A DNA stretch of 64,000 nucleotides from Tardiphaga sp. (lineage in GTDB: Bacteria > Pseudomonadota > Alphaproteobacteria > Rhizobiales > Xanthobacteraceae), in assembly GCA_030147505.1 (NCBI GenBank), contig JASBVG010000123.1, forward strand, positions 1 through 64,000. The letters are read 5' to 3'. A program made the position numbers and the translations under genes. Below the pieces are notes generated by a model, which was not told the DNA's origin, ran no database searches, and saw only the letters and a list, made by a program, of their open reading frames with translations. Below are positions 1,598 to 37,020 of the stretch, piece by piece; the first letter of the stretch is position 1; every line of letters starts with the position of its first letter.

Positions 1598-4501
1598 CTA
1601 CTCGGCAGCCTCCAGCGCCGCAATGCGGCGCGACTGACGGGCCTGCTCGTCATATTCCTTCTGCCATTCCGACGGGCCGTTGGACGGCGAGATCTGCACC
1701 GCCGTCACCTTGTATTCCGGACAATTGGTCGCCCAGTCCGAGAAGTCCGTCGTGATGACATTGGCCTGCGTGGTCGGGTGGTGGAAGGTCGTATAAACCA
1801 CGCCCGGCGCCACGCGTTCGGTGATGAGCGCGCGCAATGTCGTCTCGCCGGCGCGGCTCTGCAACCGCACCCAGTCGCCATCGCGAATGCCGCGCTGCTC
1901 GGCATCGTGCGGATGCAGCTCGAGCCGGTCTTCCTCATGCCAGACGACGTTGTCGGTGCGGCGGGTCTGCGCGCCGACATTGTACTGGCTGAGGATGCGG
2001 CCGGTGGTGAGCAAGAGCGGGAAACGCGGCCCGGTACGCTCATCGGTGGCGACATATTCGGTACGCATGAACTTGCCCTTGCCGCGCACGAAGCCGTCCA
2101 TATGCATGATCGGCGTGCCATGCGGCGCCTTATCGTTGCATGGCCACTGCACGGACCCGTCCTTCTCCAGCTTCTCGTAGGAGACGCCCGCGAATGTCGG
2201 TGTCAGCGCCGCGATCTCGTCCATGATCTCCGAGGGATGGTTGTACTTCATCTCGAAGCCGAGGGCCTTGGCGAATCCCAAGGTGACCTCCCAGTCCTCG
2301 AGCCCGTTCTTCGGCGACATCACCTTGCGGACACGCTGGATGCGGCGTTCGGCATTGGTGAAGGTGCCGTTCTTCTCCAGGAAGGTGGAACCCGGGAAGA
2401 ACACGTGAGCGTAGTTTGCGGTCTCGTTCAGGAACAGGTCGTGGACGATGACACATTCCATCGAGGACAGCGCGGCGACCACATGCGAGGTGTTCGGGTC
2501 GGACTGCAGGATGTCCTCGCCCTGCACATAGAGGCCCATGAAGGTGCCGTCGGTGGCGGCATCAAACATGTTGGGGATGCGAAGGCCCGGCTCGGGATTG
2601 AGCTTCACGTTCCACATCGCCTCGAACTGCTCGCGCACGGCATCCCCGGAGAGGTGGCGATAGCCCGGCAGCTCATGTGGGAACGAGCCCATGTCGCAGG
2701 AGCCCTGCACATTGTTCTGGCCGCGCAGCGGATTCACGCCGACGCCGGGACGCCCGATATTGCCGGTCGCCATGGCGAGATTGGCAATGGCGATAACCGT
2801 GGTCGAACCCTGGCTGTGTTCGGTGACACCCAGGCCATAATAAATCGCGCCATTGCCACCGGTGGCGTAGAGACGCGCGGCTGCACGGAGCTCCTTCGGA
2901 TCCACACCCGTCATGATGGCGGTGGCTTCCGGGCTGCGCGAGGGGTCGGCGACGAACGACGCCCAGTCCTCGAACTCGCTCCAGTCGCAGCGCTCACGGA
3001 TGAAGGCTTCGTTGGCAAGGCCTTCGGTGACGATGACATGGGCGATGGCGGTGAGCACGGCGACATTGGTGCCGGGCAGCAACGGCAGATGATGCTGCGC
3101 CTCGACATGGGCCGAACGCACGATATCGGTACGGCGCGGATCGACGACGATCAGCTTGGCCCCTTGGCGCAGACGCTTCTTCAGGCGCGAACCGAACACC
3201 GGATGGCCATCGGTCGGGTTGGCGCCGATGATCATCACGACATCGGTGTCTTCCACCGAATCGAAATCCTGCGTGCCGGCCGAGGTGCCGAAGGTCGAGG
3301 ACAGGCCGTAGCCGGTCGGCGAATGGCAGACGCGGGCGCAGGTATCGACATTGTTGTTGCCGAAGCCGGCGCGGATCAGCTTCTGCACCACATAGACTTC
3401 TTCATTGGTGCAGCGTGACGAGGTGATGCCGCCCACGGCATCCTTGCCATACTTCGCCTGGATGCCCTTGAATTTCCCGGCAGCAAAGTTGAACGCCTCG
3501 TCCCACGATACTTCGCGCCAGGGCTCGGTGATCTTGTCGCGAATCATCGGATTGAGGATGCGTTCCTTGTGGTTCGCGTAGCCCCAGGCGAAACGGCCCT
3601 TGACGCAGGAATGGCCGCGATTGGCCTTGCCGTCCTTGTACGGGACCATACGCACCAGTTCCTCGCCGCGCATTTCGGCCTTGAAGGTGCAGCCGACACC
3701 GCAATAAGCGCAGGTGGTGACGAGCGAATGTTCGGGCTGGCCGATCTCGATCACGGCTTTCTCTGTCAGCGTCGCCGTCGGGCAGGCCTGCACACAGGCG
3801 CCGCATGAGACGCACTCGGAACCGAGGAACGACTCGCTCATTCCGGGCGAGACACGGCTGTCGAAGCCGCGGCCGGAGATCGTCAGTGCAAACGTGCCCT
3901 GCACTTCCTCGCAGGCGCGGACGCAGCGCGAGCAGACGATGCACTTGGAGGGGTCATAGGTGAAGTACGGATTGGACTCGTCCTTCGCCATCCAGCGATC
4001 GTTCTCGCAGGCTTCCGGCGAATGATGGGTGTGCTTCGGACCGGACTTAGCGAAGACATGGTTCTCGCCGTCATAGCCATAACGCACGTCGCGCAGGCCG
4101 ACCTGGCCGGCGACATCCTGCAGTTCGCAGTCGCCATTGGCAGCGCAGGTGAGACAGTCGAGCGGATGGTCGGAGATATAGAGCTCCATCACGCCCTTGC
4201 GGAGTGCTGCGAGGCGCGGGTTCTGGGTGTGAACCACGAGGCCTTCCATCGCGGGCGTGGTGCAGGAGGCCGGCGTGCCCGCGCGGCCTTCGATCTCCAC
4301 CAGACACATGCGGCAGGAGCCGAACGCATCCACCATGTCGGTGGCGCAGAGTTTCGGGATCTGCGTGCCCATCTCCATGGCAGCGCGCATGATCGAGGTG
4401 CCCTCGGGCACGGTGACGCTCTGACCATCGATGGTCAGCGTCACCATCTTCTCGGATTTGGACTTTGGGGTGCCGTAATCGGTTTCGTGAACGAGCGACA
4501 T
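1598..4501 (-). CDS. fdsA: NAD-dependent formate dehydrogenase alpha (catalytic) subunit FdsA
   Basis: A 967-residue molybdopterin catalytic subunit oxidising formate to CO2. The N-terminus is NuoG-like, with 2Fe-2S cysteines at about C52, C63, C66 and C80. A His-ligated cluster follows (H112, C116, C119, C125), then two 4Fe-4S sets (C187-C197 and C230-C240) and the cluster of the Mo domain (C264, C267, C271, C299). The molybdenum ligand is Cys392 followed by His393 (ARVCHS), so this is a Cys enzyme, not a selenoprotein. The C-terminal dinucleotide-binding domain is complete. It sits 11 bp after fdsB. Confidence 0.98.
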   Translation of the reverse strand: MSLVHETDYGTPKSKSEKMVTLTIDGQSVTVPEGTSIMRAAMEMGTQIPKLCATDMVDAFGSCRMCLVEIEGRAGTPASCTTPAMEGLVVHTQNPRLAALRKGVMELYISDHPLDCLTCAANGDCELQDVAGQVGLRDVRYGYDGENHVFAKSGPKHTHHSPEACENDRWMAKDESNPYFTYDPSKCIVCSRCVRACEEVQGTFALTISGRGFDSRVSPGMSESFLGSECVSCGACVQACPTATLTEKAVIEIGQPEHSLVTTCAYCGVGCTFKAEMRGEELVRMVPYKDGKANRGHSCVKGRFAWGYANHKERILNPMIRDKITEPWREVSWDEAFNFAAGKFKGIQAKYGKDAVGGITSSRCTNEEVYVVQKLIRAGFGNNNVDTCARVCHSPTGYGLSSTFGTSAGTQDFDSVEDTDVVMIIGANPTDGHPVFGSRLKKRLRQGAKLIVVDPRRTDIVRSAHVEAQHHLPLLPGTNVAVLTAIAHVIVTEGLANEAFIRERCDWSEFEDWASFVADPSRSPEATAIMTGVDPKELRAAARLYATGGNGAIYYGLGVTEHSQGSTTVIAIANLAMATGNIGRPGVGVNPLRGQNNVQGSCDMGSFPHELPGYRHLSGDAVREQFEAMWNVKLNPEPGLRIPNMFDAATDGTFMGLYVQGEDILQSDPNTSHVVAALSSMECVIVHDLFLNETANYAHVFFPGSTFLEKNGTFTNAERRIQRVRKVMSPKNGLEDWEVTLGFAKALGFEMKYNHPSEIMDEIAALTPTFAGVSYEKLEKDGSVQWPCNDKAPHGTPIMHMDGFVRGKGKFMRTEYVATDERTGPRFPLLLTTGRILSQYNVGAQTRRTDNVVWHEEDRLELHPHDAEQRGIRDGDWVRLQSRAGETTLRALITERVAPGVVYTTFHHPTTQANVITTDFSDWATNCPEYKVTAVQISPSNGPSEWQKEYDEQARQSRRIAALEAAE

Positions 4502-4512
4502 GATGTGCTCCT

Positions 4513-6066
4513 TTACTCAGCGGCCTGGATGCTCGGCGTCGGGCCGAAATCATCGGGGAAATGTTTCAATGCGCTCATCACTGGATATGGCGTGAAGCCG
4601 CCCAGCGCGCAGAGCGAGCCGAACTTCATGGTGTTGGAGAGATCCTGCAGTACCGCGATGTTCTCGGCGACGCGTTCGCCACGGCGGATCTTGTCGATCG
4701 TCTCGACGCCGCGGGTGGAGCCGATGCGGCATGGCGTGCACTTGCCGCAGGATTCGATGGCGCAGAATTCCATGGCAAAGCGCGCCTGCTTCGACATGTC
4801 GACGCTGTCGTCGAAGATCACGATGCCGCCATGGCCGATCAGGCCATCGCGCTTCGCAAAGGCCTCATAGTCGAACGGCGTGTCGAACAATTCGCGCGGG
4901 AAATAGGCGCCGAGCGGACCGCCGACCTGCACGGCGCGCACGGGCTTGCCGGTGAAGGTGCCGCCGCCGATGTCATCGACGAGTTCGCCGAGGGTGATGC
5001 CGAAGGCAACTTCGAACAACCCGCCGAACTTCACATTGCCGGCGAGCTGGATCGGCATGGTGCCACGCGACCGGCCCATGCCGTAATCCGCATAGGCCTT
5101 GGCGCCATTATCGAGGATGAACGGGATGGCTGCAAAGGACAGCACGTTGTTGATGACCGTCGGTTTGCCGAACAGGCCCTTATGCGCTGGCAGCGGCGGC
5201 TTGGCGCGGACGAGGCCGCGGCGGCCTTCAAGCGATTCCAGCAGCGACGTTTCCTCGCCGCAGACATAGGCGCCGGCGCCGACGCGAACCTCAAGATCGA
5301 AGCTATGCGCCGAGCCCTTGATCTTCTCGCCCAGCCAGCCGGCACGCTTCGCCGCCGTGATGCCCGCATTCATCGCCTCGACGGCGTGCGGATACTCGGA
5401 GCGGATATAGATGTAGCCCTTGGTGGCGCCCACAGCGATGCCCGCAATGGTCATGCCCTCGATCACCACGAAGGGATCGCCTTCCATGATCATGCGGTCG
5501 GCAAAGGTGCCGCTGTCGCCCTCGTCCGCATTGCAGACGATGAATTTGCGATCGGCCTTGGTGTCGGCGACGGTCTTCCACTTGATGCCGGTGGGGAAAC
5601 CCGCACCGCCGCGACCGCGCAGGCCGGAGGTGGTGACATCGGCGATGATGCCGGCGCCATCCATCGTCAGCGCGCGGGTGAGGCCCTTATAGCCACCATG
5701 GGCCTCATAATCCGCGACCGAGCGCGGATCGACCACACCACAACGGACGAAAGTGAGACGGGTCTGCTTCTTCAGCCACGAAATCTCGTCAGCGATGCCG
5801 AGGCGCAAGTCGTGGGGGCCATCGGCAATCATCGCATCGAGAACCGAAGCGACGTCCTTCTCCTCGACCGGGCCGAAGGCGACGCGGCCCTTCGGCGTGA
5901 CGACTTCGACCATCGGCTCGAGCCAGAGCAGCCCGCGCGAACCGTTGCGAATGATCTCGATATCGAGCTTGCGCTGCGCGGCCTGCGTTTCGAACGCAGT
6001 GACCAGTTCATCGGCGCCGACACAGACGGCTGCGGCATCGCGGGGGATGTAGATCTTGAGGGTCAT
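4513..6066 (-). CDS. fdsB: NAD-dependent formate dehydrogenase beta subunit FdsB (NuoF-like)
   Basis: A 517-residue diaphorase subunit that passes electrons from FdsA to NAD+. An N-terminal thioredoxin-fold region of about 100 residues is followed by a NuoF module. The glycine-rich NADH/FMN motifs GRGGAGFPTG and NADEGDSGTFADR are present, as is GAGAYVCGEET. The 4Fe-4S cluster is formed by ESCGKCTPCRIGS and a distal Cys (GSLCALGG). Its ATG overlaps the fdsG stop by 4 bp, a sign of translational coupling. It forms FdsGBA with its neighbours, homologous to the NADH-input module of complex I. Confidence 0.97.
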   Translation of the reverse strand: MTLKIYIPRDAAAVCVGADELVTAFETQAAQRKLDIEIIRNGSRGLLWLEPMVEVVTPKGRVAFGPVEEKDVASVLDAMIADGPHDLRLGIADEISWLKKQTRLTFVRCGVVDPRSVADYEAHGGYKGLTRALTMDGAGIIADVTTSGLRGRGGAGFPTGIKWKTVADTKADRKFIVCNADEGDSGTFADRMIMEGDPFVVIEGMTIAGIAVGATKGYIYIRSEYPHAVEAMNAGITAAKRAGWLGEKIKGSAHSFDLEVRVGAGAYVCGEETSLLESLEGRRGLVRAKPPLPAHKGLFGKPTVINNVLSFAAIPFILDNGAKAYADYGMGRSRGTMPIQLAGNVKFGGLFEVAFGITLGELVDDIGGGTFTGKPVRAVQVGGPLGAYFPRELFDTPFDYEAFAKRDGLIGHGGIVIFDDSVDMSKQARFAMEFCAIESCGKCTPCRIGSTRGVETIDKIRRGERVAENIAVLQDLSNTMKFGSLCALGGFTPYPVMSALKHFPDDFGPTPSIQAAE

Positions 6067-26350: not shown

Positions 26351-28809
26351 GACGCGCGCTGTGGATCCTCGCCGTGCTGCTCAGCCACTGGCGCCGGCAT
26401 CCGCTGCAATTCGCCACGCTGATGATCGGCCTGATCGCCGCCACCGCGCTGTGGAGCGGCGTGCAGGCGCTGAACCAGCAGGCCCGCACCAGCTATGACC
26501 GCGCCGCAGCCGCGTTTGGCGGAACGCGCACGCCGATGCTGGTATCTCCGAGTGGGGGCGCGTTCCCGCAGCAATTGTTCGTCGACCTCCGCCGCGCAGG
26601 TTGGCCGGTGTCCCCGGTACTCGAAGCACGCGTGCCGATCGAAGGACGCTCGGTGCGCCTGCTCGGCATCGAGCCGGTAACCATGCCGCCGGAAGCCAGC
26701 GCCGCCGCCGAGATCGGCACATCCGGTGCGCAGGCCTTCATCGCACCGCCCGGCCAGACCTTGATTTCGCGCGAGACGTTGACCGAACTCGGTTTGCGCG
26801 AAGGTGCAACGCCGACGCTCGGCAATGGCCGCAGGCTGCCACCGCTGAAACTGCAGCCCGCTTTGGCACCGGGCGTCGTCGTGGTCGACATCGGTATCGC
26901 GCAAACGCTACTGGCAATGCCGGATCAGGTCACACGTCTCCTAATCGGTAAGGCTAAAGGCCCGCGCGCCGAGCTGGAGAGCGTCACAGGCCAACAGCTT
27001 CGCCTCGTCCAGCCCGAAAGCGAGACCGACCTCGAGCGTCTCACCGACAGTTTCCATCTCAACCTCACGGCCTTCGGCCTGCTGTCCTTCTTCGTCGGCC
27101 TGTTCATCGTCAATTCCGCCATCGGCCTCGGCTTCGAACAGCGCCTGCCGATGCTGCGCACGTTGCGCGCCTGTGGCGTCTCGGCGCGGCAGCTCAATGG
27201 CGTACTCATCCTCGAACTCGTCAGCATCGCGCTGGTCGCCGGCATCATCGGCCTCGTCTGCGGCTACGTCATCGCCGCGTCACTGTTGCCCGATGTCGCC
27301 GCCAGCCTGCGTGGACTCTATGGCGCGCAGATCCCCGGCCAGCTCACGCTGAAACCGGAATGGTGGCTGGCCGGCCTCGCCATCTCGGTGATCGGCGCGT
27401 TGCTGGCAGCGACGTCGAGCCTGCTCAAGGCGGTGCGCCTGCCATTGCTCGCCACCGCGCAGCCTTATGCCTGGCAGCAGGCCCAGCACCGCTGGCTGCG
27501 ATTGCAGGGCATCGGCGCGGCGCTCGTCTTCGCCGCGGCGGCGCTGGTGCTCTGGTTCGGCGATTCCCTGATCGCTGGTTTCACAGTTCTCGCTGCATTG
27601 CTACTCGGGGCAGCACTGGCCCTCCCCGTCCTGCTCGGCCTTATGCTGGCAGCCGGCGAACGCAGCACACGGCGACCGATCCTGACCTGGTTCTGGGCCG
27701 ACAGCCGGCTGCAGCTCTCCGGCCTGTCGCTGGGGCTGATGGCCTTGCTGCTCGCGCTGGCGGTGAATGTCGGCGTCGGCACCATGGTCGGGAGTTTCAG
27801 CCGCACCTTCACCGGCTGGCTCGACGGACGATTATCGTCCGAAATCTATCTCAATGCCGCCAGCGATACGCAGGCACGCGAAATCAAAGCATGGCTCGCG
27901 CAGCGGTCCGAGGTCCAAGCCGTGTTGCCCGGCAGCCGTGCCGAAGTTCAGCTCGATCATGCGCCGGTCGAGATCAACGGTCTTCCCGACCATTCGACGT
28001 TCAGGGACCACTGGCCATTACTTGAAGCGACCCGCGATGCATGGGATCGCCTCCGCGCCGGTGATGGCGCATTGATCAGCGAACAACTGTCACGACGAAT
28101 GAAGCTTGCCACGGGCCAGAGCATCGCCGTGCCAACGCCGAGCGGACCCTGGACCATGCAGGTCGTCGCCGTCTATGCCGATTACGGCAATCCGAAAGGA
28201 CAGCTTGCCGTCAATGTCGATGCGCTGCTTAAACATTTTCCCGGCAGTTCGCAGACCCGCATGGGCCTGCGCGTCGCCCCCGAGAGTGTATCAGCCTTGA
28301 TCGGCACCATCCGCGCACGCTTCGGCCTCGACGGCCGCAATCTCGCCGATCAGGCGAGCGTGAAGAAGGAATCGCTCGGCATTTTCAACCGCACCTTCGC
28401 CGTCACATCGGCGCTCAACGCTTTCACGCTCGGCGTTGCCGGCGTGGCGTTGCTCACCAGCCTGCTGACGCTGAGCAATGCGCGATTGCCGCAACTGGCA
28501 CCGCTCTGGGCCATCGGCCTGACGCGGCGGCAGCTCGCAGGGATCGAGCTGCTCAAGACCATGTGCATGGCATTGATCACTTCGCTGCTGGCGCTGCCAT
28601 TGGGATTGCTGGTCGCCTGGTGCCTGATCGCCATCGTCAATGTGAAGGCGTTTGGCTGGCGCCTGCCGTTCTACGTGTTCCCGCTGCAACTGGCCGAACT
28701 GCTCGGCGTCGCCATGCTGGCGGCGCTGCTGGCATCGCTGCTGCCGATCCTGCGGCTGCTGCGTATGCAGCCTGTCGAACTGGTGCAGGTGTTCGCCAAT
28801 GAGCGCTAG
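26347..28809 (+). CDS. FtsX-like ABC transporter permease
   Basis: An 820-residue double-FtsX permease. An N-terminal membrane helix (about 8-36) is followed by a large periplasmic domain (about 40-240). Then come a first FtsX membrane unit (about 245-400), a middle membrane block, a second periplasmic domain (about 500-690) and a final FtsX unit ending MQPVELVQVF. This resembles the fused AttF/AttG type of permease. The GTG at 26347 overlaps the ATPase stop (GTGA). Such proteins move lipids or lipoproteins, or act mechanically, rather than importing solutes; the substrate here is unknown. Confidence 0.92.
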   Translation: MRRALWILAVLLSHWRRHPLQFATLMIGLIAATALWSGVQALNQQARTSYDRAAAAFGGTRTPMLVSPSGGAFPQQLFVDLRRAGWPVSPVLEARVPIEGRSVRLLGIEPVTMPPEASAAAEIGTSGAQAFIAPPGQTLISRETLTELGLREGATPTLGNGRRLPPLKLQPALAPGVVVVDIGIAQTLLAMPDQVTRLLIGKAKGPRAELESVTGQQLRLVQPESETDLERLTDSFHLNLTAFGLLSFFVGLFIVNSAIGLGFEQRLPMLRTLRACGVSARQLNGVLILELVSIALVAGIIGLVCGYVIAASLLPDVAASLRGLYGAQIPGQLTLKPEWWLAGLAISVIGALLAATSSLLKAVRLPLLATAQPYAWQQAQHRWLRLQGIGAALVFAAAALVLWFGDSLIAGFTVLAALLLGAALALPVLLGLMLAAGERSTRRPILTWFWADSRLQLSGLSLGLMALLLALAVNVGVGTMVGSFSRTFTGWLDGRLSSEIYLNAASDTQAREIKAWLAQRSEVQAVLPGSRAEVQLDHAPVEINGLPDHSTFRDHWPLLEATRDAWDRLRAGDGALISEQLSRRMKLATGQSIAVPTPSGPWTMQVVAVYADYGNPKGQLAVNVDALLKHFPGSSQTRMGLRVAPESVSALIGTIRARFGLDGRNLADQASVKKESLGIFNRTFAVTSALNAFTLGVAGVALLTSLLTLSNARLPQLAPLWAIGLTRRQLAGIELLKTMCMALITSLLALPLGLLVAWCLIAIVNVKAFGWRLPFYVFPLQLAELLGVAMLAALLASLLPILRLLRMQPVELVQVFANER

Positions 28810-29881
28810 GCTGACACGACGGAGTTTTGCGGGTGGCCTCGCGCTGATGAGCCTCACGGCTCCGCGCGCCATGGCACAGGGCTTTGCCGGCCTTGGCCGC
28901 GATTCCGGGGATTTTGCGCCCGTAGTACCCGGTCGCACGCTGACCTTCCCGGCCGATCACGGCCCGCATCCCGGCTTCCGCATCGAATGGTGGTATCTCA
29001 CCGCCAATCTCGCCGATGCCTCGGGCAATGCCTATGGCGTACAATGGACGCTGTTCCGGCAAGCGATGGCGCCGGGCGCACAGGACAGCGGCTGGGCCAC
29101 GCCGCAGATCTGGATGGGCCATGCCGCAGTGACATCGGCGACGACGCATCATTCGGCGGAAACTTTCGCTCGTGGCGGTATAGGGCAGGCTGGCGTAACC
29201 GCCACGCCGTTCCGTGCATGGATCGATGCATGGGAAATGCGCGGGCTCGACGGCTTTTCGGACATGAACGTGGCGCCGCTTGATGTCGCGGCATCCGCGA
29301 AGAACTTCAGCTACCGGTTTCGCCTCGATGCCCCGCGGCCGCTCGTGCTGCAAGGCGATGCCGGTTACAGCCGCAAGTCCGAACGCGGCCAGGCGTCCTA
29401 CTACTACAGCCAGCCCTACTTCACGGCGTCAGGCGAACTGACCGTCGATGGCAAGGACATCCCCGTCACCGGTCGTGCCTGGATGGACCGCGAATTTTCG
29501 AGCCAGCCGCTGGCCTCGGACCAAACCGGCTGGGACTGGTTCTCGCTACACTTGCCGGGGGACGAGAAGCTGATGCTGTTCCGGCTTCGGCAGAAGGACG
29601 GCAGCCACTATTTTGCGGGCAACTGGATCTCGGCGGATGGCAAGTCGGAACAGTTGACGCCCGACGCAATCGCAATGACGCCGACGGCCGTAACGGATGT
29701 CGCAAGCCGCAAGATTCCGACGGCATGGCGCATCTCCATCGCGTCACGCGGGTTGCGGATCGAAACGACGCCGCTCAATGCGCAGAGCTGGATGGCGACG
29801 AGCTTTGCCTATTGGGAAGGGCCGGTGCTTTTCAGCGGCACCCATGGCGGCGCCGGCTATCTGGAAATGACAGGGTATTAG
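28799..29881 (+). CDS. Tat-exported lipocalin-like (AttH/CrtC-domain) protein
   Basis: A 360-residue protein with a twin-arginine signal (RLTRRSFAGGLAL...AMAQ) and two lipocalin-like halves of the AttH/CrtC family. Family motifs are HPGFRIEWWYLTANL, YGVQWTLFRQA, WMGHAAVT, GRAWMDREFSSQPL and GWDWFSLHL. The start codon lies inside the end of the permease gene (11-bp overlap), so it is tightly coupled to the ABC genes. A periplasmic lipid- or hydrophobe-binding partner of the transporter is the likely role; a hydrolase or hydratase activity has been proposed for relatives but no catalytic site is obvious. Confidence 0.9.
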   Translation: MSARLTRRSFAGGLALMSLTAPRAMAQGFAGLGRDSGDFAPVVPGRTLTFPADHGPHPGFRIEWWYLTANLADASGNAYGVQWTLFRQAMAPGAQDSGWATPQIWMGHAAVTSATTHHSAETFARGGIGQAGVTATPFRAWIDAWEMRGLDGFSDMNVAPLDVAASAKNFSYRFRLDAPRPLVLQGDAGYSRKSERGQASYYYSQPYFTASGELTVDGKDIPVTGRAWMDREFSSQPLASDQTGWDWFSLHLPGDEKLMLFRLRQKDGSHYFAGNWISADGKSEQLTPDAIAMTPTAVTDVASRKIPTAWRISIASRGLRIETTPLNAQSWMATSFAYWEGPVLFSGTHGGAGYLEMTGY

Positions 29882-29907
29882 CTCCGTCACTGTGAGAGCA
29901 CGCTTAA

Positions 29908-29936
29908 CCTCTCCCCGCGTCTCGTGCGGAGAGAGG
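29908..29936. repeat. CCTCTCCCCGC palindrome (dispersed rhizobial repeat)
   Basis: An 11-bp inverted repeat with one mismatch (CCTCTCCCCGC / GCGGAGAGAGG) around a 7-base loop, between convergent genes. The motif is a familiar dispersed palindrome in Bradyrhizobium-related genomes. It may also end transcription from both sides. Confidence 0.65.
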
Positions 29937-29954
29937 TACGGAGCAGAGCCCTCT

Positions 29955-31160
29955 TTACTTCGTCAGCGGGCAGCCGCTGTCCTTGGCTGTCGGATAGGCC
30001 TTGTCGCCAGGCACCACGGCGAGCTGCTTGTAGTAGTCCCACGGCTTCTTCGATTCCGAAGGCTTCTTCACCTCGAACAAATAAAGGTCCTTCACCATGC
30101 GGCCATTGGCCTGCACCTTGCCGCCCTGGGCAAAGGCGTCGTCCACCGGAAGCTCCTTTAACTTCTTGGCGACCGCTTCGGAATCCTTGGTGCCTGCAGC
30201 TTTTACCGCCTTCAGATAAGAGAGGGTCGACGAATAGGTACCGGCCTGGATCATGCTGGGCATGCGCTGGGTGCGTTTGAAATAGCGCTCGGCGAATGCG
30301 CGCGATTTGTCGTCGCGATCCCAGTAGAAGCTTTCAGTCAGCACCAGGCCCTGCGCCGCCTGCAGGCCGAGGCCGTGCACTTCCGCCAGCGTCATCAGCA
30401 GGCCAGCCAATTTCTGACCGCCGGAGACGATACCGAATTCAGCCGCCTGCTTCACGGCATTGGTGGTGTCGAGGCCGGCATTGGCAAGGCCGATGACCTT
30501 GGCCTTCGATGCCTGCGCCTGCAGCAGGAACGACGAGAAGTCCGACGAATTCAGCGGATGGCGGACAGCACCAAGCACCTTGCCACCCTTCGACTTCACG
30601 ATATCGCCGGTGTCCTTCTCCAGCGAATAGCCGAAGGCGTAGTCGGCGGTGAGGAAGAACCAGGTATCGCCGCCATTTTCGGTCAGCGCGCCGCCGGTGC
30701 CGACGCCGAGCGCGCGGGTGTCGAACGACCAGTGGAAACCATAGGCCACACAAGCATCGCCGGTGATGCGCGAGGTCGCGGCACCGACCACGATATCGAT
30801 CTTCTTGGCCTGCGCCGACAGCTCCTGCACCGCCAGTGCCACCGAGGAAGTGGTGAGTTCGGTGATCATGTCGACGTTTTCGACGTCATACCAGCGGCGG
30901 GCGATGGTGACTGCGAGATCGGGCTTGTTCTGGTGGTCGGCGGTGACCATCTCGATCTTGTGGCCAAGGACTTCGCCGCCAAAATCCTCGATCGCCATCC
31001 TGGCGGCTTCAATCGAGCCCTTGCCACCGTAGTCGGCATAAACGCCGGACTGATCGTTGAGGATGCCGATCTTGACGCCTTGCGCGGCGGCGGGCGTCAG
31101 CGTCGATGTGGCGAGGAAAAGACCGCAAAGTGCGGCAGCGGACGTCAGTCCAAGTTTCAT
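29955..31160 (-). CDS. ABC transporter substrate-binding protein (branched-chain amino acid / LivJ type)
   Basis: A 401-residue periplasmic binding protein with a cleavable signal (MKLGLTSAAALCGLFLATSTLTPAAAQ). The Peripla_BP_6 fold is seen in VKIGILNDQSGVYADYGGKG, DHQNKPDLA and the two-lobed pattern through SFYWDRDDKSRAFAERYFKR. Relatives bind branched-chain amino acids, amides or aromatic acids. No permease or ATPase genes are nearby, so it is an orphan and its ligand cannot be inferred from context. It is convergent with the AttH-like gene. Confidence 0.93.
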   Translation of the reverse strand: MKLGLTSAAALCGLFLATSTLTPAAAQGVKIGILNDQSGVYADYGGKGSIEAARMAIEDFGGEVLGHKIEMVTADHQNKPDLAVTIARRWYDVENVDMITELTTSSVALAVQELSAQAKKIDIVVGAATSRITGDACVAYGFHWSFDTRALGVGTGGALTENGGDTWFFLTADYAFGYSLEKDTGDIVKSKGGKVLGAVRHPLNSSDFSSFLLQAQASKAKVIGLANAGLDTTNAVKQAAEFGIVSGGQKLAGLLMTLAEVHGLGLQAAQGLVLTESFYWDRDDKSRAFAERYFKRTQRMPSMIQAGTYSSTLSYLKAVKAAGTKDSEAVAKKLKELPVDDAFAQGGKVQANGRMVKDLYLFEVKKPSESKKPWDYYKQLAVVPGDKAYPTAKDSGCPLTK

Positions 31161-31257
31161 AAGTGCCTCCCAGGATTTTTATGGGCGGCACAGTATGGGA
31201 GATGATTGCAACTGGCGAGTGTGACTTTCGGATGATGCGGTATGCATCACCAAAGTG

Positions 31258-32943
31258 TCATCGGGCGCTGTCGAACGTATAGGATGCCTGCAAGAACCCG
31301 CCGAAACGTTCGTTACGCACCGGCACCGACTTATAAGAGCCGGAGCCGGAGAAATTGGTATAGGCATCGGTGCCCGTAGCCCACATGGCCCAATAGCGGC
31401 CGCCGGCGCCGACGCTGAAAGACGGCGTGATCGTGTAAGACAAAATGGCTTCGAGCTGAGCACCTTGCCCCGTGCCGAATTCGGGCGACAGCAACGGCGT
31501 CACCCGCTGCATGTGATTGTCTACCCCGTAGAACCGCACGTAAGGCAGGTAGGCAGCATCCGCAGTGAGCTGCAATCGTTCGGTCAGCGCCATCACGCCA
31601 TTGATGCCGATGCGCAGCGAATGCCAGTCATTCTTCTCGCTAATCCCTGCCGTCGTGCTCGGAATAGGCGTCAGGCACGTGCTGAAAGGATTGCCGCCGG
31701 CAAGCTGTACACAGCCCATCGCGGTCTTGTCATCACGCAGATAATTGTAGCCGATGAACGCGCTGAACTTGGCGGCGCCATCGCGGACGATGTCATAACC
31801 GAGATCACCGGTGACATAGGTGATGCTGCCATGAACCGGATCTGACAGCGTGTTGGAATAGGGCACCCAGCCGTCATTGATCAGCCAGTCCTCGTCACGC
31901 ATCTTGCCGCGGGAGAGCGCACCGCCGCCGACGATACCCTTGATCACGACATTCGACGCGGTATCGATACGGCCGAAGACTTCGCCCGATGCCGTCTCGC
32001 TCGTATAGGTCAGACGCGACGATAACGGGTCCTGGATGAGCGGCGACCACATGGCGCCGAGATCTTTCTGGAAGCGGCCGAAAGAATACCAGATCCGTCC
32101 GCCAATCTCGATCTCGGTACCGGCGGGCAGTTGCGCCGCCATCGCCTTCACCGGCACGCCAAGCGGACTCGCCGGCACGGCATCCCAACGCGCGCCGGCA
32201 TCGGCGCCCAGTTTCAGATTGAGACCGAGCTTGATGCTCTGCATGGTCTGGCTGACCTGTGCGGGGCCTCCCAAGAGCGGGACGTAGTTGGGCAGCACCA
32301 ACTCGCGAGTGGCCGGCGCTGCGACGGCCATCTTGCCGAAATCCGCATAGTCGTAGTCGAGTTTGAACGACCAGGCCGGCGTGATTGCCTGCTCGAGACC
32401 GGCACCGACGATCCAGCCAAACCGATCATGACGCGTCGACAGGATTTGGTCATGCGTGCTGAAGCTGATGTGCTCCCGCAACCATGCACCGCCGCCTTTG
32501 ACATAGACGAGCGTGCGACCGCTCGGACCCACGGCATAGCCGATGCGACCGGTGACAATCGCCATCGCCTCCTGCCGCACGCGGCAATTGGCGGAGACAA
32601 TGAAACTCGAGGTCGCAAAACAAGTGCCGCTACCATCGGCGCCGAGCGCACTGAACTCGGCTTCCGCACCGACCACCCATGAACTGGCGGGCATCTGCCA
32701 GTTGTAGCCGAACTGCCCGCCGCCGCGGATCGCTGGCGTGCGCACGTCACTGCCATAGAGCACCGGCCCCTCGCCATCGTCGAAGTTCGACTGCCCCCAG
32801 CCGGCACCGATATGGGCACCGAGATAGAGGCCGGTCCAGTTCCAGACTTGTTGCGGAACCGGACGGCGCGGCAGGTCTGCGGCATGTGCTGCACCAACGG
32901 CAGCCAGCAGCGACACAACAGCGACGACCAGCAACTTCTTCAT
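31258..32943 (-). CDS. Outer-membrane double-barrel protein: Omp25-type N-terminus and omptin-like protease C-terminus
   Basis: A 561-residue protein with signal peptide (cleavage near AHAADLP, residue 22). Residues about 25-245 match the rhizobial Omp25/Omp31-type eight-strand barrel (WTGLYLGAHIGAGWG ... SIKLGLNLKLG). Residues about 268-561 look like a complete omptin. D350-E-D352-W matches the Asp83/Asp85 pair of OmpT, and D475-N-H477 matches the Asp210/His212 pair. The spacing is 125 residues against 127 in OmpT, and the domain of about 294 residues is near omptin length. The end (SYTFDSAR) lacks a terminal Phe. The omptin call is from motif and spacing, not a search. Confidence 0.78.
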   Translation of the reverse strand: MKKLLVVAVVSLLAAVGAAHAADLPRRPVPQQVWNWTGLYLGAHIGAGWGQSNFDDGEGPVLYGSDVRTPAIRGGGQFGYNWQMPASSWVVGAEAEFSALGADGSGTCFATSSFIVSANCRVRQEAMAIVTGRIGYAVGPSGRTLVYVKGGGAWLREHISFSTHDQILSTRHDRFGWIVGAGLEQAITPAWSFKLDYDYADFGKMAVAAPATRELVLPNYVPLLGGPAQVSQTMQSIKLGLNLKLGADAGARWDAVPASPLGVPVKAMAAQLPAGTEIEIGGRIWYSFGRFQKDLGAMWSPLIQDPLSSRLTYTSETASGEVFGRIDTASNVVIKGIVGGGALSRGKMRDEDWLINDGWVPYSNTLSDPVHGSITYVTGDLGYDIVRDGAAKFSAFIGYNYLRDDKTAMGCVQLAGGNPFSTCLTPIPSTTAGISEKNDWHSLRIGINGVMALTERLQLTADAAYLPYVRFYGVDNHMQRVTPLLSPEFGTGQGAQLEAILSYTITPSFSVGAGGRYWAMWATGTDAYTNFSGSGSYKSVPVRNERFGGFLQASYTFDSAR

Positions 32944-33072
32944 GACAATATATGACCCAGCCCGGTGATTCCCGACTGGACAATCGCGTACAACGATTAA
33001 AGGAGTCTGAGGATTTTACCGCTCGCTAACCATGATTGTCAGCGTTCGTTTCACCATGCCGCGGCGCGTCGC

Positions 33073-33294
33073 TCAGTTCTGCTTCTTCAGCGCCGCCTCG
33101 ATACAAGCGAGTTCGCGCTCGATCTCGGCGATCAGCGGCACCGGATCGTTATCTTCGACCAGATGCATCTTCTCATAGGTACCGTTGCGGATGCTCTCGA
33201 TCCAGGCGAGGCGGTCGGCTTGATATTGCTTCAGCCGCTCGAACTCCCCACGCTCGGCATATTTGCCGATCAGCTTTTCGAACACTGCGCTCAT
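33073..33294 (-). CDS. Small conserved hypothetical protein, 73 aa
   Basis: A 73-residue, highly charged, probably all-helical protein (MSAVFEKLIGKYAERGEFERL ... IERELACIEAALKKQN). No signal, membrane segment or known motif. GGAGGA lies just upstream of the ATG at 33294. Downstream is the end of the omptin-like gene, 129 bp away. No function is proposed. Confidence 0.65.
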   Translation of the reverse strand: MSAVFEKLIGKYAERGEFERLKQYQADRLAWIESIRNGTYEKMHLVEDNDPVPLIAEIERELACIEAALKKQN

Positions 33295-33307
33295 GGGAAA
33301 TCCTCCT

Positions 33308-33396
33308 GTAGCTCGGATAGAGCGCAGCGTAATCCGGGGATGTCGAAAAAACTGAGACGCCGGTTCCCGGGTGACGCTGCGCTCCGCCCGGGCTAC
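33308..33396. repeat. 89-bp palindromic repeat (GTAGC...GCTAC ends)
   Basis: The two ends are long imperfect inverted copies: each arm contains GAGCGCAGCGT and CCGGG, and the ends are GTAGC and GCTAC. This is a dispersed 'GCGCAGCG-CCGGG' type of intergenic repeat. It lies between htpG and the 73-aa gene. Confidence 0.75.
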
Positions 33397-33406
33397 GACA
33401 TCGCGA

Positions 33407-35278
33407 TTACAGCCCGCGCAACACCAGTCGGTTCAGCCGCGCGGCGAAAGCCGCCGGATCTTCCGGCAATTCGCCATCGAGGATCTGCGCCTGCTCCAGC
33501 AGCAGGAAGGCGATATCCGACGCCTCGCCGCCCGCTGCCTTGTCGGCGCCTGCGATCTTCGTCACCAAGGGGTGGCGCAGATTGATTTCGAGGATCGGCT
33601 TGGTGACACTACCGCGGTTCTGCATCGCCAGCATGCGTTCAAGCTCGCGGTCGGGGCCGCGGCCACCGGCGACGAGACACGAGGCCGAGGTCGTGAGGCG
33701 CGTCGACGCCTTCACATCGGAGACGCGCTCTCCCAGCGCCTCCTTGATCACGGCGATGGTCGAGGCCTCGTCGGCCGCGGCCGCCCTCGCTTCGTCCTTG
33801 GCGTCTTCGTCCACTCGCGGGATCAGGTCGAGATTGACCTCACCTTGACTGAGCGACTTCAGTGGCTTGCTTTCATACTCGAGCGGCGCTGAGGTCCAGA
33901 ACGCATCCACAGCATCAGACAGCAGCAGCACTTCGATGCCGCGCGACTTGGCGGCTTCGAGCTTCGGATTCGATTTGAGGCGCTCCAGGCTGTCGCCGGC
34001 GAGATAATAGATCTCGGTCTGGTTCTCCTTCAGATCGGCGACATACTGTTTCAGCGTCCGCTTCTCGCCAGCCGTGGTGGTGAAGCGCGACAGCGCCAGC
34101 AGCTTTTCGCGACGCTCGAAGTCCTCATAGATGCCCTCTTTCAGCACCGGACCGAACGCGTCCCAGATCTTGGTGAAGGTCTCGTTGTCCTTCTCGGCAA
34201 GGGTTTCGAATTCGCCGATCACGCGCGTCGCCACCGCCTTCTTGATCTGGGCAAGCTGCGGATTGTTCTGCAGCATCTCGCGCGACAGGTTCAGCGGCAG
34301 ATCCTCGGCATCGATGACGCCGCGGATGAAGCGCAGATAGGACGGGAGCATATCGGCATCGTCGGTGATGAAGACGCGGCGGACATAGAGTTTGACGCGG
34401 CCCTTGCGCTCGGGCTCGAACAGGTCGAACGGCTTGCTGGACGGCGCGAACAACAGCACGGCATAGGAGTAACGGCCTTCGGCGCGATAATGCAGCGTCA
34501 TCGCCGGCTCGTCATAGGCGTGGGCGATGGACTGGTACGCCTTGCTGTAGTCTTCCGGCGTCAGCTCCGACTTGGAGCGCTGCCACAGCGCGCTCGCCGA
34601 GTTGATCTGCTTCGGCTCGGCATCACCGTCCTTGAGCATGATCGGAAACTGGATGTTGTCCGAATAGGCGGTGACGATCCGCTCGATCTCCCAGCTTTCA
34701 AGGTATTTCTTAGCATCGTCCTTGAGTTGCAATTCGATCGAGGTGCCGGCGGGCACACTCATTCCGTCATTGAGCTGCGCGATCTCGAAGCCGGCGCCGC
34801 CGGTGGACGTCCAAGTGAAGGCATCATGCGTGCCGGCGCGACGGCTGGTCACAACAATCTTCTCCGCCACCATGAAAGCGGCATAGAAGCCGACACCGAA
34901 CTGACCGATCAGGCCGATACCGTCCTTGGCCTCGGTGAGGCGTGACAGGAACGACTTGGTACCGGACTTGGCGATGGTGCCGAGATTGTCGATCAGTTCC
35001 TGGCGATCCATGCCGATACCGGTATCGACGATGGTCAGCGTGTTCGCTGCTTTATCCGGAACGATGGTGATGCTCTGCGACTGACCTTCAGGGACCAGTT
35101 GCGGATTGGCGATCGCCTCATAGCGCAGCTTGTCGCAGGCATCGGATGCATTGGAGATCAGTTCGCGCAGAAAGATGTCGGTCTCGGAATAGACCGAGTG
35201 AACCATCAGATTCAGCAATTCGGCGACTTCGGCCTGAAACGGCTGGGAAACGGGTGCAGCGGTGTCGGTGGTCGTCAT
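33407..35278 (-). CDS. htpG: Chaperone HtpG (Hsp90)
   Basis: A 623-residue Hsp90. The N-terminal GHKL ATPase domain shows [19 protein letters not shown] (catalytic Glu and Asn), [28 protein letters not shown] and the SIELQLK lid region. The middle domain carries the conserved [11 protein letters not shown] Arg, and the C-terminal dimerisation domain is complete. The ATG at 35278 starts [10 protein letters not shown]; the longer frame has no support. It is monocistronic. No CIRCE or sigma-32-like element was evident upstream. Confidence 0.98.
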
Positions 35279-35389
35279 GAATGAACCTGATATACAAATA
35301 AGGGGAAGACGCCGCATATAACGGCGCGATCTTGCGGAGTCCATGGCAGTCGCCGCAACTCCGCTTCCCCCTAGTTAGTGATGTCAGGC

Positions 35390-35635
35390 TCAGGCTTCCA
35401 GAGCCGTCGCATAGGCGTTTTCCAGCATCGCCAGGCATTCGCGCGCACGGGCGCGGCCGACTTCATTGGCGATTTCGGAAATTTCGCGGAGATCGCGGAT
35501 CGCCAAATCGACGGCACTGAAAATATCGATCTCACACTCATCGGCCACATCGTTCACAGGGGCCGTACACTTCGGAAAAGGAATGACTACGCTCACTGGA
35601 CAACCGCTCTGCACAAAGGGACACGCACGAATCAC
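35390..35635 (-). CDS. Small hypothetical protein, up to 81 aa
   Basis: The C-terminal part (ECEIDIFSAVDLAIRDLREI ... ECLAMLENAYATALEA) looks like a real helical protein. The N-terminal part is less convincing. A GTG at 35557 would give a 55-residue protein and may be the true start. No known domain is seen. It lies upstream of htpG in the same direction, 111 bp away. Confidence 0.5.
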   Translation of the reverse strand: MIRACPFVQSGCPVSVVIPFPKCTAPVNDVADECEIDIFSAVDLAIRDLREISEIANEVGRARARECLAMLENAYATALEA

Positions 35636-35703
35636 AGACGTACATTTGGCCAGCGAATGGTTAAGCTAATGGATAACGACCATGCGCTCGTCGTTTCTCC
35701 GCT

Positions 35704-36030
35704 TCAACGCAACCAGCGTACCTGCGGAATCAAACAACTTTGCGCTTCGTCGGAGGCTTGCTCGGTCGGCTGAATTGCGGGCGCTTCGAGCGCAAGCGGC
35801 GGCGGCGCCGGCAGCGACAATTGACGCGGCGCGACGCTCTCTCGCCCGCGCCGATAGGCTTCTTCCTCCAGCTGGCGGCTGAAGTAACGAAACAGTTCGG
35901 TGGCGCGCTTGCGCTGGTCGTCCGTCGTCGCCGAGGCGATCAGAAAGATCAGCTCTTCGGACAGTTCGGATGTAGTGGCGCCCAAGGGATCGCTGGTAAG
36001 ATTGTCGAGATGGTCGTCGAGCACGGGCAT
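35704..36030 (-). CDS. Conserved hypothetical protein, 108 aa
   Basis: A 108-residue soluble protein with a helical N-terminal two thirds (SELSEELIFLIASATTDDQRKRATELFRYF) and a Pro/Ala-rich tail ending PQVRWLR. No signal peptide or catalytic motif. It ends 68 bp before the next small gene downstream on the same strand. Function unknown. Confidence 0.55.
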   Translation of the reverse strand: MPVLDDHLDNLTSDPLGATTSELSEELIFLIASATTDDQRKRATELFRYFSRQLEEEAYRRGRESVAPRQLSLPAPPPLALEAPAIQPTEQASDEAQSCLIPQVRWLR

Positions 36031-36039
36031 GGCGAGCCG

Positions 36040-36204
36040 TCATTCCGTCACGGTAGTGATACGATGGTCGTGCCTGCATGTAGTTGATATCTCGTTGTTC
36101 CGGCGCAGCCACTCGCAGATCGTGAACAAGATGGTTAATACAGTCGCAACGCTTCCCATCACGACCGCGGCGCGAAGCAGCCCGGAGCACCGCCGATTGT
36201 GCAT
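36040..36204 (-). CDS. Candidate small membrane protein, 54 aa
   Basis: An ATG at 36204 opens a 54-codon frame with one strong membrane helix (LLRAAVVMGSVATVLTILF) and a charged tail. It ends 9 bp before the 108-aa gene on the same strand. Codon usage is not strongly typical and no homologue is known to me, so it is a candidate only. The rest of the interval 36205-36324 shows nothing else. Confidence 0.3.
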   Translation of the reverse strand: MHNRRCSGLLRAAVVMGSVATVLTILFTICEWLRRNNEISTTCRHDHRITTVTE

Positions 36205-36324
36205 TATCCCGTAATTTCGGTGCAGCGCAGATCGCAATATTGGCAAGGACCGCCGGTAACCTAGTCGCCTTCCATGCCACGCCCGGTTACGAGACCTATA
36301 AGGGCCTCGGCGGGTGTGTCGTGA

Positions 36325-36897
36325 TCATTCGCGGAAACTGACGGGGCCCCCGCCGCCATTCAGCCAGTGACGAAGTTTGGCGAACCAACCCTCGGGCGAA
36401 GGTGCGACGGGGATCGGTGGCACTCCAGGCACCGGCGCCGGTTCGACGATCTGCGGCGATGTTTCGGTAAAGGCCGCAGCCTCATGCGTCGCTGCCAGCG
36501 CCATCGGGCCGACATGCGCGAGGAACGCATGTTCGTGATGCCGGGTCAGCCGTTTCAGCGCCTGATCGAGCGGCAGCCAGGCGACCTCGGCGATATCCTT
36601 CATCAATTTGCGCGGCGGCCTTCCGTCGGCTTCCATATGCCAGAAATGCACGACCTTGGTGCGTTCTTCGCCCAGCGGGTAGGCCAGCGTGCCCAGATAT
36701 TGCTGCACTGACGCAGCGTGCCCGGTCTCTTCCAGCACCTCGCGCTGGGCAGCATCGAGCGGGGTTTCGCCGTCGTCGAGCTTGCCCTTCGGCAGCACCC
36801 AATCACCACGCTTGCGCATGCACACAACCGCAAAAAGCGGCGTGGCTTCACGCCGTATGACGATGCCTCCCGCAGCCAATATGATTTCGCGCGCCAT
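36325..36897 (-). CDS. NUDIX hydrolase
   Basis: A 190-residue NUDIX protein. The box is complete: G38-x5-E44-x7-R52-E53-V-x-E56-E57-x-G59, within GKLDDGETPLDAAQREVLEE. The DIPP/MutT-like core occupies residues 3-140, then a Pro-rich linker (EPAPVPGVPPIPVAP) and a short tail (WFAKLRHWLNGGG). Relatives cleave diphosphoinositol polyphosphates or dinucleotide polyphosphates; the substrate is not determined. The ATG at 36897 is chosen because the core begins directly after it. Confidence 0.9.
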   Translation of the reverse strand: MAREIILAAGGIVIRREATPLFAVVCMRKRGDWVLPKGKLDDGETPLDAAQREVLEETGHAASVQQYLGTLAYPLGEERTKVVHFWHMEADGRPPRKLMKDIAEVAWLPLDQALKRLTRHHEHAFLAHVGPMALAATHEAAAFTETSPQIVEPAPVPGVPPIPVAPSPEGWFAKLRHWLNGGGGPVSFRE

Positions 36898-37020
36898 GTT
36901 GCTCACATAACCGGATTGCTGACGAATACAACCAATCTGTGACGCGCGGTGAGCGCAGACCGGGGCCGCAACCGACCTGCGCGCAGCCGTCACACGACCG
37001 TCACGAAGCCGCTCCGCAGC

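Follow-up and report, generated by a model that had tools for sequence, protein, structure and literature searches.

Can a single polypeptide carry two outer-membrane barrels, one of them a protease? The question is raised by one open reading frame in a 64,000-nucleotide stretch of Tardiphaga sp. DNA, referred to here as the window. The frame, at 31258-32943, lies on the minus strand (a preliminary description gave no strand), is open, begins with ATG and encodes 561 amino acids. It had been described as a signal peptide followed by an Omp25/Omp31-type barrel and an omptin-like protease barrel. A signal-like start is indeed present, and residues 2-19 form a helix, of low confidence, in the predicted structure. 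The features of the gene are as follows.

31258-32943, minus strand: whole gene, 561 amino acids, an OMP25-type barrel followed by one of omptin type; sister genomes L133 and L131 have orthologues at this site
32881-32943, minus strand: signal peptide-like N-terminus, residues 1-21, seen in the sequence; putative cleavage site
32209-32832, minus strand: first barrel, residues 38-245, eight long strands, Omp25/OmpA type, from Pfam and the model
32584-32622, minus strand: cysteine pair C108/C120 in the first barrel, on an outer loop; of 28 aligned double barrels, 20 and 21 have Cys at these positions
32116-32208, minus strand: linker, residues 246-276, predicted disordered (pLDDT < 50 at 251-271)
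31270-32115, minus strand: second barrel, residues 277-558, ten long strands, omptin type, from the model, Foldseek, profile and hhalign
32062-32067, minus strand: K293-D294, in the place of pocket acid E27 of classical omptins (joint alignment)
31888-31896, minus strand: D350-E351-D352, counterpart of OmpT D83/D85, from alignments and quartet conservation
31675-31713, minus strand: cysteine pair C411/C423 in the protease barrel, at an outer loop; 101 and 105 of the 108 domains have Cys at these positions
31525-31527, minus strand: G473, in the place of pocket acid D208 of classical omptins (joint alignment)
31513-31521, minus strand: D475-N476-H477, counterpart of OmpT D210/H212, from alignments and quartet conservation

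The neighbours of the gene share its strand: htpG, the Hsp90 gene, at 33407-35344, and a periplasmic binding-protein gene at 29955-31160. Between the same two genes L133 carries an orthologue with 69% identity over its full length, and a second same-site orthologue, 51% identical, is found in L131; the presence of both argues that the fused reading frame is not an assembly artefact (the listed completeness of the window assembly is 94.9% and its contamination 7.6%). In L133 the first barrel is 65% and the second 74% identical, while the two genes adjoining the orthologue are 94% and 96% identical and the next two out 81% and 91%. The htpG site was inspected in 14 of the 18 genomes of the genus and holds the gene in the window genome, L131 and L133; in the other 11 no match lies between htpG and the binding-protein gene (tblastn, E <= 1e-6), and three of these 11 carry a copy elsewhere. 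Its patchiness at this site, together with an identity well below that of the adjoining genes, marks it, on these comparisons, as an accessory gene for a surface protein, evolving faster than the genes around it.

A search of 28000-37000 against Rfam gave no matches at gathering thresholds. A promoter-like match at 33013-33042 on the minus strand was given no weight, two matches having been found where 0.9 were expected. Each of the 18 genus genomes has between 17 and 49 matches to the family of the neighbouring gene at 29955-31160.

For the first barrel, a Pfam search with the full protein matched OMP_b-brl (PF13505) to residues 12-204 (E 6.7e-17; 62.6 bits against a cut-off of 28.7) and OmpA_membrane (PF01389) to residues 46-200 (E 1.3e-6, over cut-off), which bears out the earlier reading of an Omp25/Omp31-type barrel. 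On its gathering score and eight long predicted strands (38-55, 66-83, 89-108, 118-138, 144-162, 167-186, 191-208 and 227-245) it classes as an OMP_b-brl or Omp25-type barrel. These two properties it shares with barrels of the Omp25/Omp31 and OmpA types; unlike them it is internal to a longer chain, and its last strand does not stand at the protein end. Cysteines C108 and C120 may form a disulfide. The outer loops carry a net charge of -4 in the window protein; the charge is negative in 20 of the 28 aligned proteins and runs from -10 to +2 across them, a range that stands without a control set. The outer loops of the second barrel have a net charge of -8.

The structure of the whole chain was predicted with AlphaFold2 from an alignment of 28 double-barrel proteins (A3), giving a model of 561 residues with pLDDT 84.3 and pTM 0.81. 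Beyond the first eight strands the model has a second set of ten long strands spanning 277 to 558, with four short strand pieces also present in loops; D350/D352 stand at the end of long strand 3 of this second barrel and D475/H477 at the end of its strand 7. A disordered linker separates the two sets and would lie on the periplasmic side, because the strand numbers of both barrels are even. The claim of two barrels in one polypeptide thus agrees with the model, which holds no merged barrel, and we consider it highly probable that the chain forms two closed barrels. By prediction, the window protein is a multi-barrel outer-membrane protein of 8 + 10 long strands, and its second barrel has the ten-stranded OmpT fold. 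In a Foldseek comparison with the PDB, ranks 1-11 are all omptins (OmpT, Pla or pOmpT entries; E 2.7e-13 to 9.7e-9) with TM scores by target length of 0.77-0.85, one entry, 9a34, being itself a computed model. The best non-omptin match has an E-value of 2.1e-6. The highest-ranked OmpA entry is at 23, followed by two more at 39 and 43 (TM by target 0.41-0.67).

Omptins (OmpT, Pla, PgtE) make up PF01278, the MEROPS family A26. The expectation that an omptin HMM would recognise the second barrel held in part. When the full window protein was searched against Pfam, the PF01278 match was absent; the C-terminal half alone scored 18.8 bits, under the gathering cut-off of 22.6. Nor did NCBIfam or a phmmer search of the PDB with the window protein, or a PF01278 search of its own genome, give any match to that half. 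A named-genome scan with the window protein returned one locus, which matched residues 16-264 (the first barrel) at 30%. Searches beyond the window gave matches to the C-terminal half in 44 of 297 genomes of the order, and matches to PF01278 in 21 of 296 genomes of the family; the latter comprise classical omptins, whose complete frames have 328-355 residues, and weak matches, mostly in longer frames.

Two alignments were drawn from these loci: A1, with 42 of 45 C-domains (L006, L022 and L029 left out), and A2, with six classical omptin loci (L035, L039 and L053 left out). At E <= 1 the A1 profile has three matches among PDB sequences, namely OmpT (1i78, 9.1e-8), another OmpT entry (5.1e-7) and a SIR2-family protein (0.55). 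Alignment of A1 with the six classical omptins by hhalign gave a probability of 96 and an E-value of 3.1e-9, and PF01278 matches 30 of the 42 A1 members at E <= 0.01 (best 4.6e-10). Ten relatives were also scanned whole. Five pass the omptin cut-off, including a double barrel, L044 (29.4 bits), that is 54% identical to the window protein; in the other five, including the four-barrel L108 and L110, there is no omptin match at E <= 0.001, so that their link to omptins rests on the family profile and the fold. Since fold, profile and near relatives that pass the cut-off agree, they overrule the sub-threshold score of the window protein, and we regard it as close to certain that the second barrel is related to omptins by descent.

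Descent alone does not make a protease, and the catalytic residues are more telling. Omptins hydrolyse peptide bonds at the outer mouth of their barrel with a water molecule positioned between two residue pairs, Asp/Asp and Asp/His, which in OmpT are D83/D85 and D210/H212, spaced 127 apart. The motifs D350-E351-D352-W353 and D475-N476-H477, 125 apart, are present as the preliminary description had them, and in the alignment of the A1 profile with OmpT the DxD and DxH motifs lie opposite those of OmpT; in a joint alignment the catalytic columns coincide with those of all six classical omptins. On these alignments the second barrel carries Asp/Asp and Asp/His at the omptin positions. Conservation was assessed in 108 distinct domains, each longer than 200 residues; they come from the fetched loci and include that of the window. 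The quartet DDDH is kept in 105, the exceptions being L027 (NDDH), L029 (ETDH) and L097 (DDAW). Smaller sets give 85 of 88 domains and, column by column, 43, 44, 45 and 45 of 45; L029 is absent from A1 and is thus unseen in quartet counts based on that alignment. Mean column identity in the 42 homologous C-halves is 38%, and it is because all four residues are retained at this level of divergence that retention of the quartet is, on these alignments, beyond chance. The altered quartets of L027, L029 and L097 mean that some members of the family may be inactive.

The pocket for substrate tells a different story from the quartet. In omptins, E27 and D208 form an acidic S1 pocket that binds basic residues. 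A joint alignment of 42 new and six classical rows has E in the E27 column of all five classical rows with a letter there, and K in 27 of the 42 new rows, with an adjacent D in 33; the D208 column has D in 6/6 classical rows and, among the new rows, G in 32/42 and D in 1/42. In the window protein the direct alignment places K293 and G473 at these positions, so that the acidic pocket of classical omptins is not found there, although a shift of one residue would put D294 at E27, which makes D208 the only firm loss on this alignment. The catalytic part appears conserved and the specificity part altered, and the substrate range probably differs from that of OmpT. With these acidic residues of the pocket exchanged for others, it is doubtful that the second barrel cleaves basic peptides, and an assay with basic peptides alone could miss activity. 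The protease barrel therefore resembles omptins in its predicted ten strands, its best fold matches and its Asp/Asp and Asp/His columns; unlike them it sits behind another barrel and has both pocket acids replaced. It differs further from the six classical omptins (one a fragment), which have no Cys beyond residue 35, in its near-invariant cysteine pair and, in the window sequence, in its score under the Pfam cut-off.

Barrels are joined in several ways among the relatives. Architectures were called with one profile per barrel type, built from A3, and only these two barrel types were recognised. The 108 domains comprise 53 OMP25-protease, 29 protease alone, 20 OMP25-OMP25-protease-OMP25, three OMP25-protease-OMP25-OMP25, two OMP25-protease-OMP25 and one protease-OMP25; these counts are not frequencies, as long frames were chosen for fetching, and some of the domains counted as protease alone are in frames cut short at a contig end or carry an N-terminal part that was not assigned. 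A quick tree of 107 domains, with several long branches and 26 open forks, groups the 23 four-barrel proteins together (support 95). Architectures change 11 times on this tree against 47.8 in shuffles, and the OMP25-protease order (52 rows) 8 times against 36.

Relatives of about 1000 residues (L108 at 1779-4769 on the plus strand, L109, L126 and others) have three OMP25 barrels and one protease barrel. A model of L108 (997 residues, from 20 sequences; pLDDT 74.3, pTM 0.68) has 8, 8, 10 and 8 strands. Ten of its 50 best Foldseek rows are omptins, at ranks 1-3, 5, 6, 8, 9, 12, 15 and 50, with TM by target of 0.72-0.82; large transporters, with TM by target <= 0.23, are interleaved with them. 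As modelled, some relatives appear to join four barrels in one chain.

Several loci have further arrangements. Paired genes lie near one another as two OMP25-protease genes (L013; L125/L085) or two protease-only genes (L009), and in L126 some 2 kb separates two four-barrel genes. An OMP25-type barrel is encoded by its own frame just downstream of the OMP25-protease gene, on the same strand, in L048 (2331-3107), L049 (2375-3079) and L078 (568-1272). The frame in L118 (155-3553, minus strand) runs to 1133 residues and ends in the protease barrel; an earlier part of it matches TPR weakly (E 1e-5, below the Pfam cut-off), and the profile found no OMP25 barrel in this frame. Long N-terminal parts that match neither barrel profile precede the recognised barrels in L112 (1112-4228), L122, L127 and L148-L150; these being stop-to-stop frames, some of the parts may be non-coding.

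Proteins with more than one barrel per chain are reportedly the subject of a survey by Solan et al. (2021, PNAS). The tandem arrangement had been called unusual in the preliminary description; two barrels stand in the model, but the adjective does not, since multi-barrel outer-membrane proteins are an already described class that includes GfcD, predicted with 12 + 13 strands (PMC11494523). The window protein resembles this class in having more than one barrel domain per chain and differs from it, as the class is described there, in having one barrel of enzyme type. It also resembles the OmpA-OmpT pair of E. coli, in which an OmpA-type barrel is reported to act beside an omptin barrel at about 1:1 (PMC7617971); those are two separate proteins, whereas here there is one chain. 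Omptin-annotated genes of rhizobia feature in two reports, bll1872 of Bradyrhizobium (PMC6515984) and ompT1 of Mesorhizobium (PMC7643969); these soil bacteria probably belong to the same wider group as those studied here. For a fused omptin barrel no paper was found by title or abstract start in the open-access literature, most subscription papers lying outside that scope, and this absence is weak evidence for the novelty of an omptin-OMP25 fusion.

Taken together, the best explanation of the gene, and one we think likely, is a two-barrel chain with an omptin-type surface protease. The product would be secreted, BAM would insert both barrels into the outer membrane, and the linker would be left on the periplasmic side. 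Because strands 3 and 7 of the second barrel end in the same residues, this barrel would be expected to act at the surface as in omptins, activating water between its Asp/Asp and Asp/His pairs; from the alignments we judge that it is probably an active protease. Its changed pocket residues would give it a range of substrates other than that of OmpT. With less assurance, the first barrel may act as a cis partner of the protease, either improving its capture of substrate or helping it to stay active.

The notion of a partner draws on the report cited above, in which, in liposomes, OmpA raises OmpT activity, with saturation near 1:1 and a lowered KM; the effect depends on the outer loops of OmpA and on the negative charge that they carry. 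Of the other barrels tested there, most do little or nothing, and OmpX lowers activity by about 30% (PMC7617971). If contact between OmpA and OmpT is useful, fusion of an OmpA-fold and an omptin-type barrel is to be expected, and it is on this parallel that we tentatively suggest the first barrel as a built-in activator of the protease barrel; its match to OmpA_membrane and the net -4 of its outer loops are in keeping with this. A partner would not always be needed, as 29 of 108 domains have no recognised one. A broader proposal, a shade more speculative, is that of a covalent multi-barrel protease family in which one to three OmpA-fold barrels activate the one omptin-type barrel or guide substrates to it, with up to four barrels and 34 strands: a natural fusion of the E. 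coli OmpA-OmpT partnership, with a new substrate preference.

Other readings bear on different parts of this account. The two barrels might both work and yet have no functional link, the Omp25-type barrel being a plain anchor or hitch-hiker; this touches the activator role only, is compatible with the rest, and has in our estimate nearly an even chance. Domains without a recognised partner (29/108) are what it would predict, as are OMP25 barrels on either or both sides of the protease barrel; the clustering of the OMP25-protease order on the tree over large sequence distances (8 changes against 36 shuffled) speaks against it, and so does the reported activation of OmpT by free OmpA (PMC7617971). 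A reading that would reach further is that the second barrel descends from omptins and retains their residues while serving as a surface adhesin or receptor. The changed pocket acids, the partial loss of the quartet in 3/108 domains, the score of the window copy under the Pfam omptin cut-off and the fast change of the gene (69% identity in L133 against 94% and 96% for adjoining genes, and 81% and 91% for the next two) would all fit. A surface protease is also expected to change fast, however, and a quartet kept in 105/108 domains, at 38% mean column identity in the set of 42, is hard to explain without catalysis; we hold this reading to be unlikely.

Two further readings would remove the second barrel or its ancestry. 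That the chain forms one large barrel of about 18 strands, or that the frame is fused or misread, we find very improbable: the structure here is known from prediction alone, but the model separates eight and ten long strands by a disordered linker, the protease barrel is also found alone and in other orders, and same-site orthologues exist in two sister genomes. Slighter still is the chance that the likeness to omptins is merely that of outer-membrane barrels at large, with a coincidental motif. Weak matches of the 42 members to Pom (7), OMP_b-brl (7) and Autotransporter (4) hint at such a general likeness, yet at E <= 1 the profile picks out no outer-membrane proteins in the PDB other than OmpT entries, omptins fill Foldseek ranks 1-11, and the catalytic columns coincide with those of 6/6 classical omptins. 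On the model, the profile and fold matches, and the orthologues, we set aside the merged barrel, the chance resemblance and the fused or misread frame.

The two-barrel protease reading gives the locus a wider interest. The purpose of a second barrel in multi-barrel proteins is not obvious; here one barrel resembles an enzyme with an easily measured activity, and its partner resembles OmpA, the reported activator of the E. coli relative, which makes the role of the second barrel directly testable. The four-barrel relatives would be demanding test cases for the insertion of several barrels from one chain by BAM.

Copies found with the C-terminal half in genomes G035, G171, G209 and G041 have internal stop codons within the matched stretch, which suggests gene decay, though single stops may be the gene end. 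The A1 profile matches in at least 81 of 292 genomes of the family (at most eight candidates scored per genome), in at least 16 of 398 genomes across the phylum (at most five scored per genome) and, at genus level, in seven of 18 genomes.
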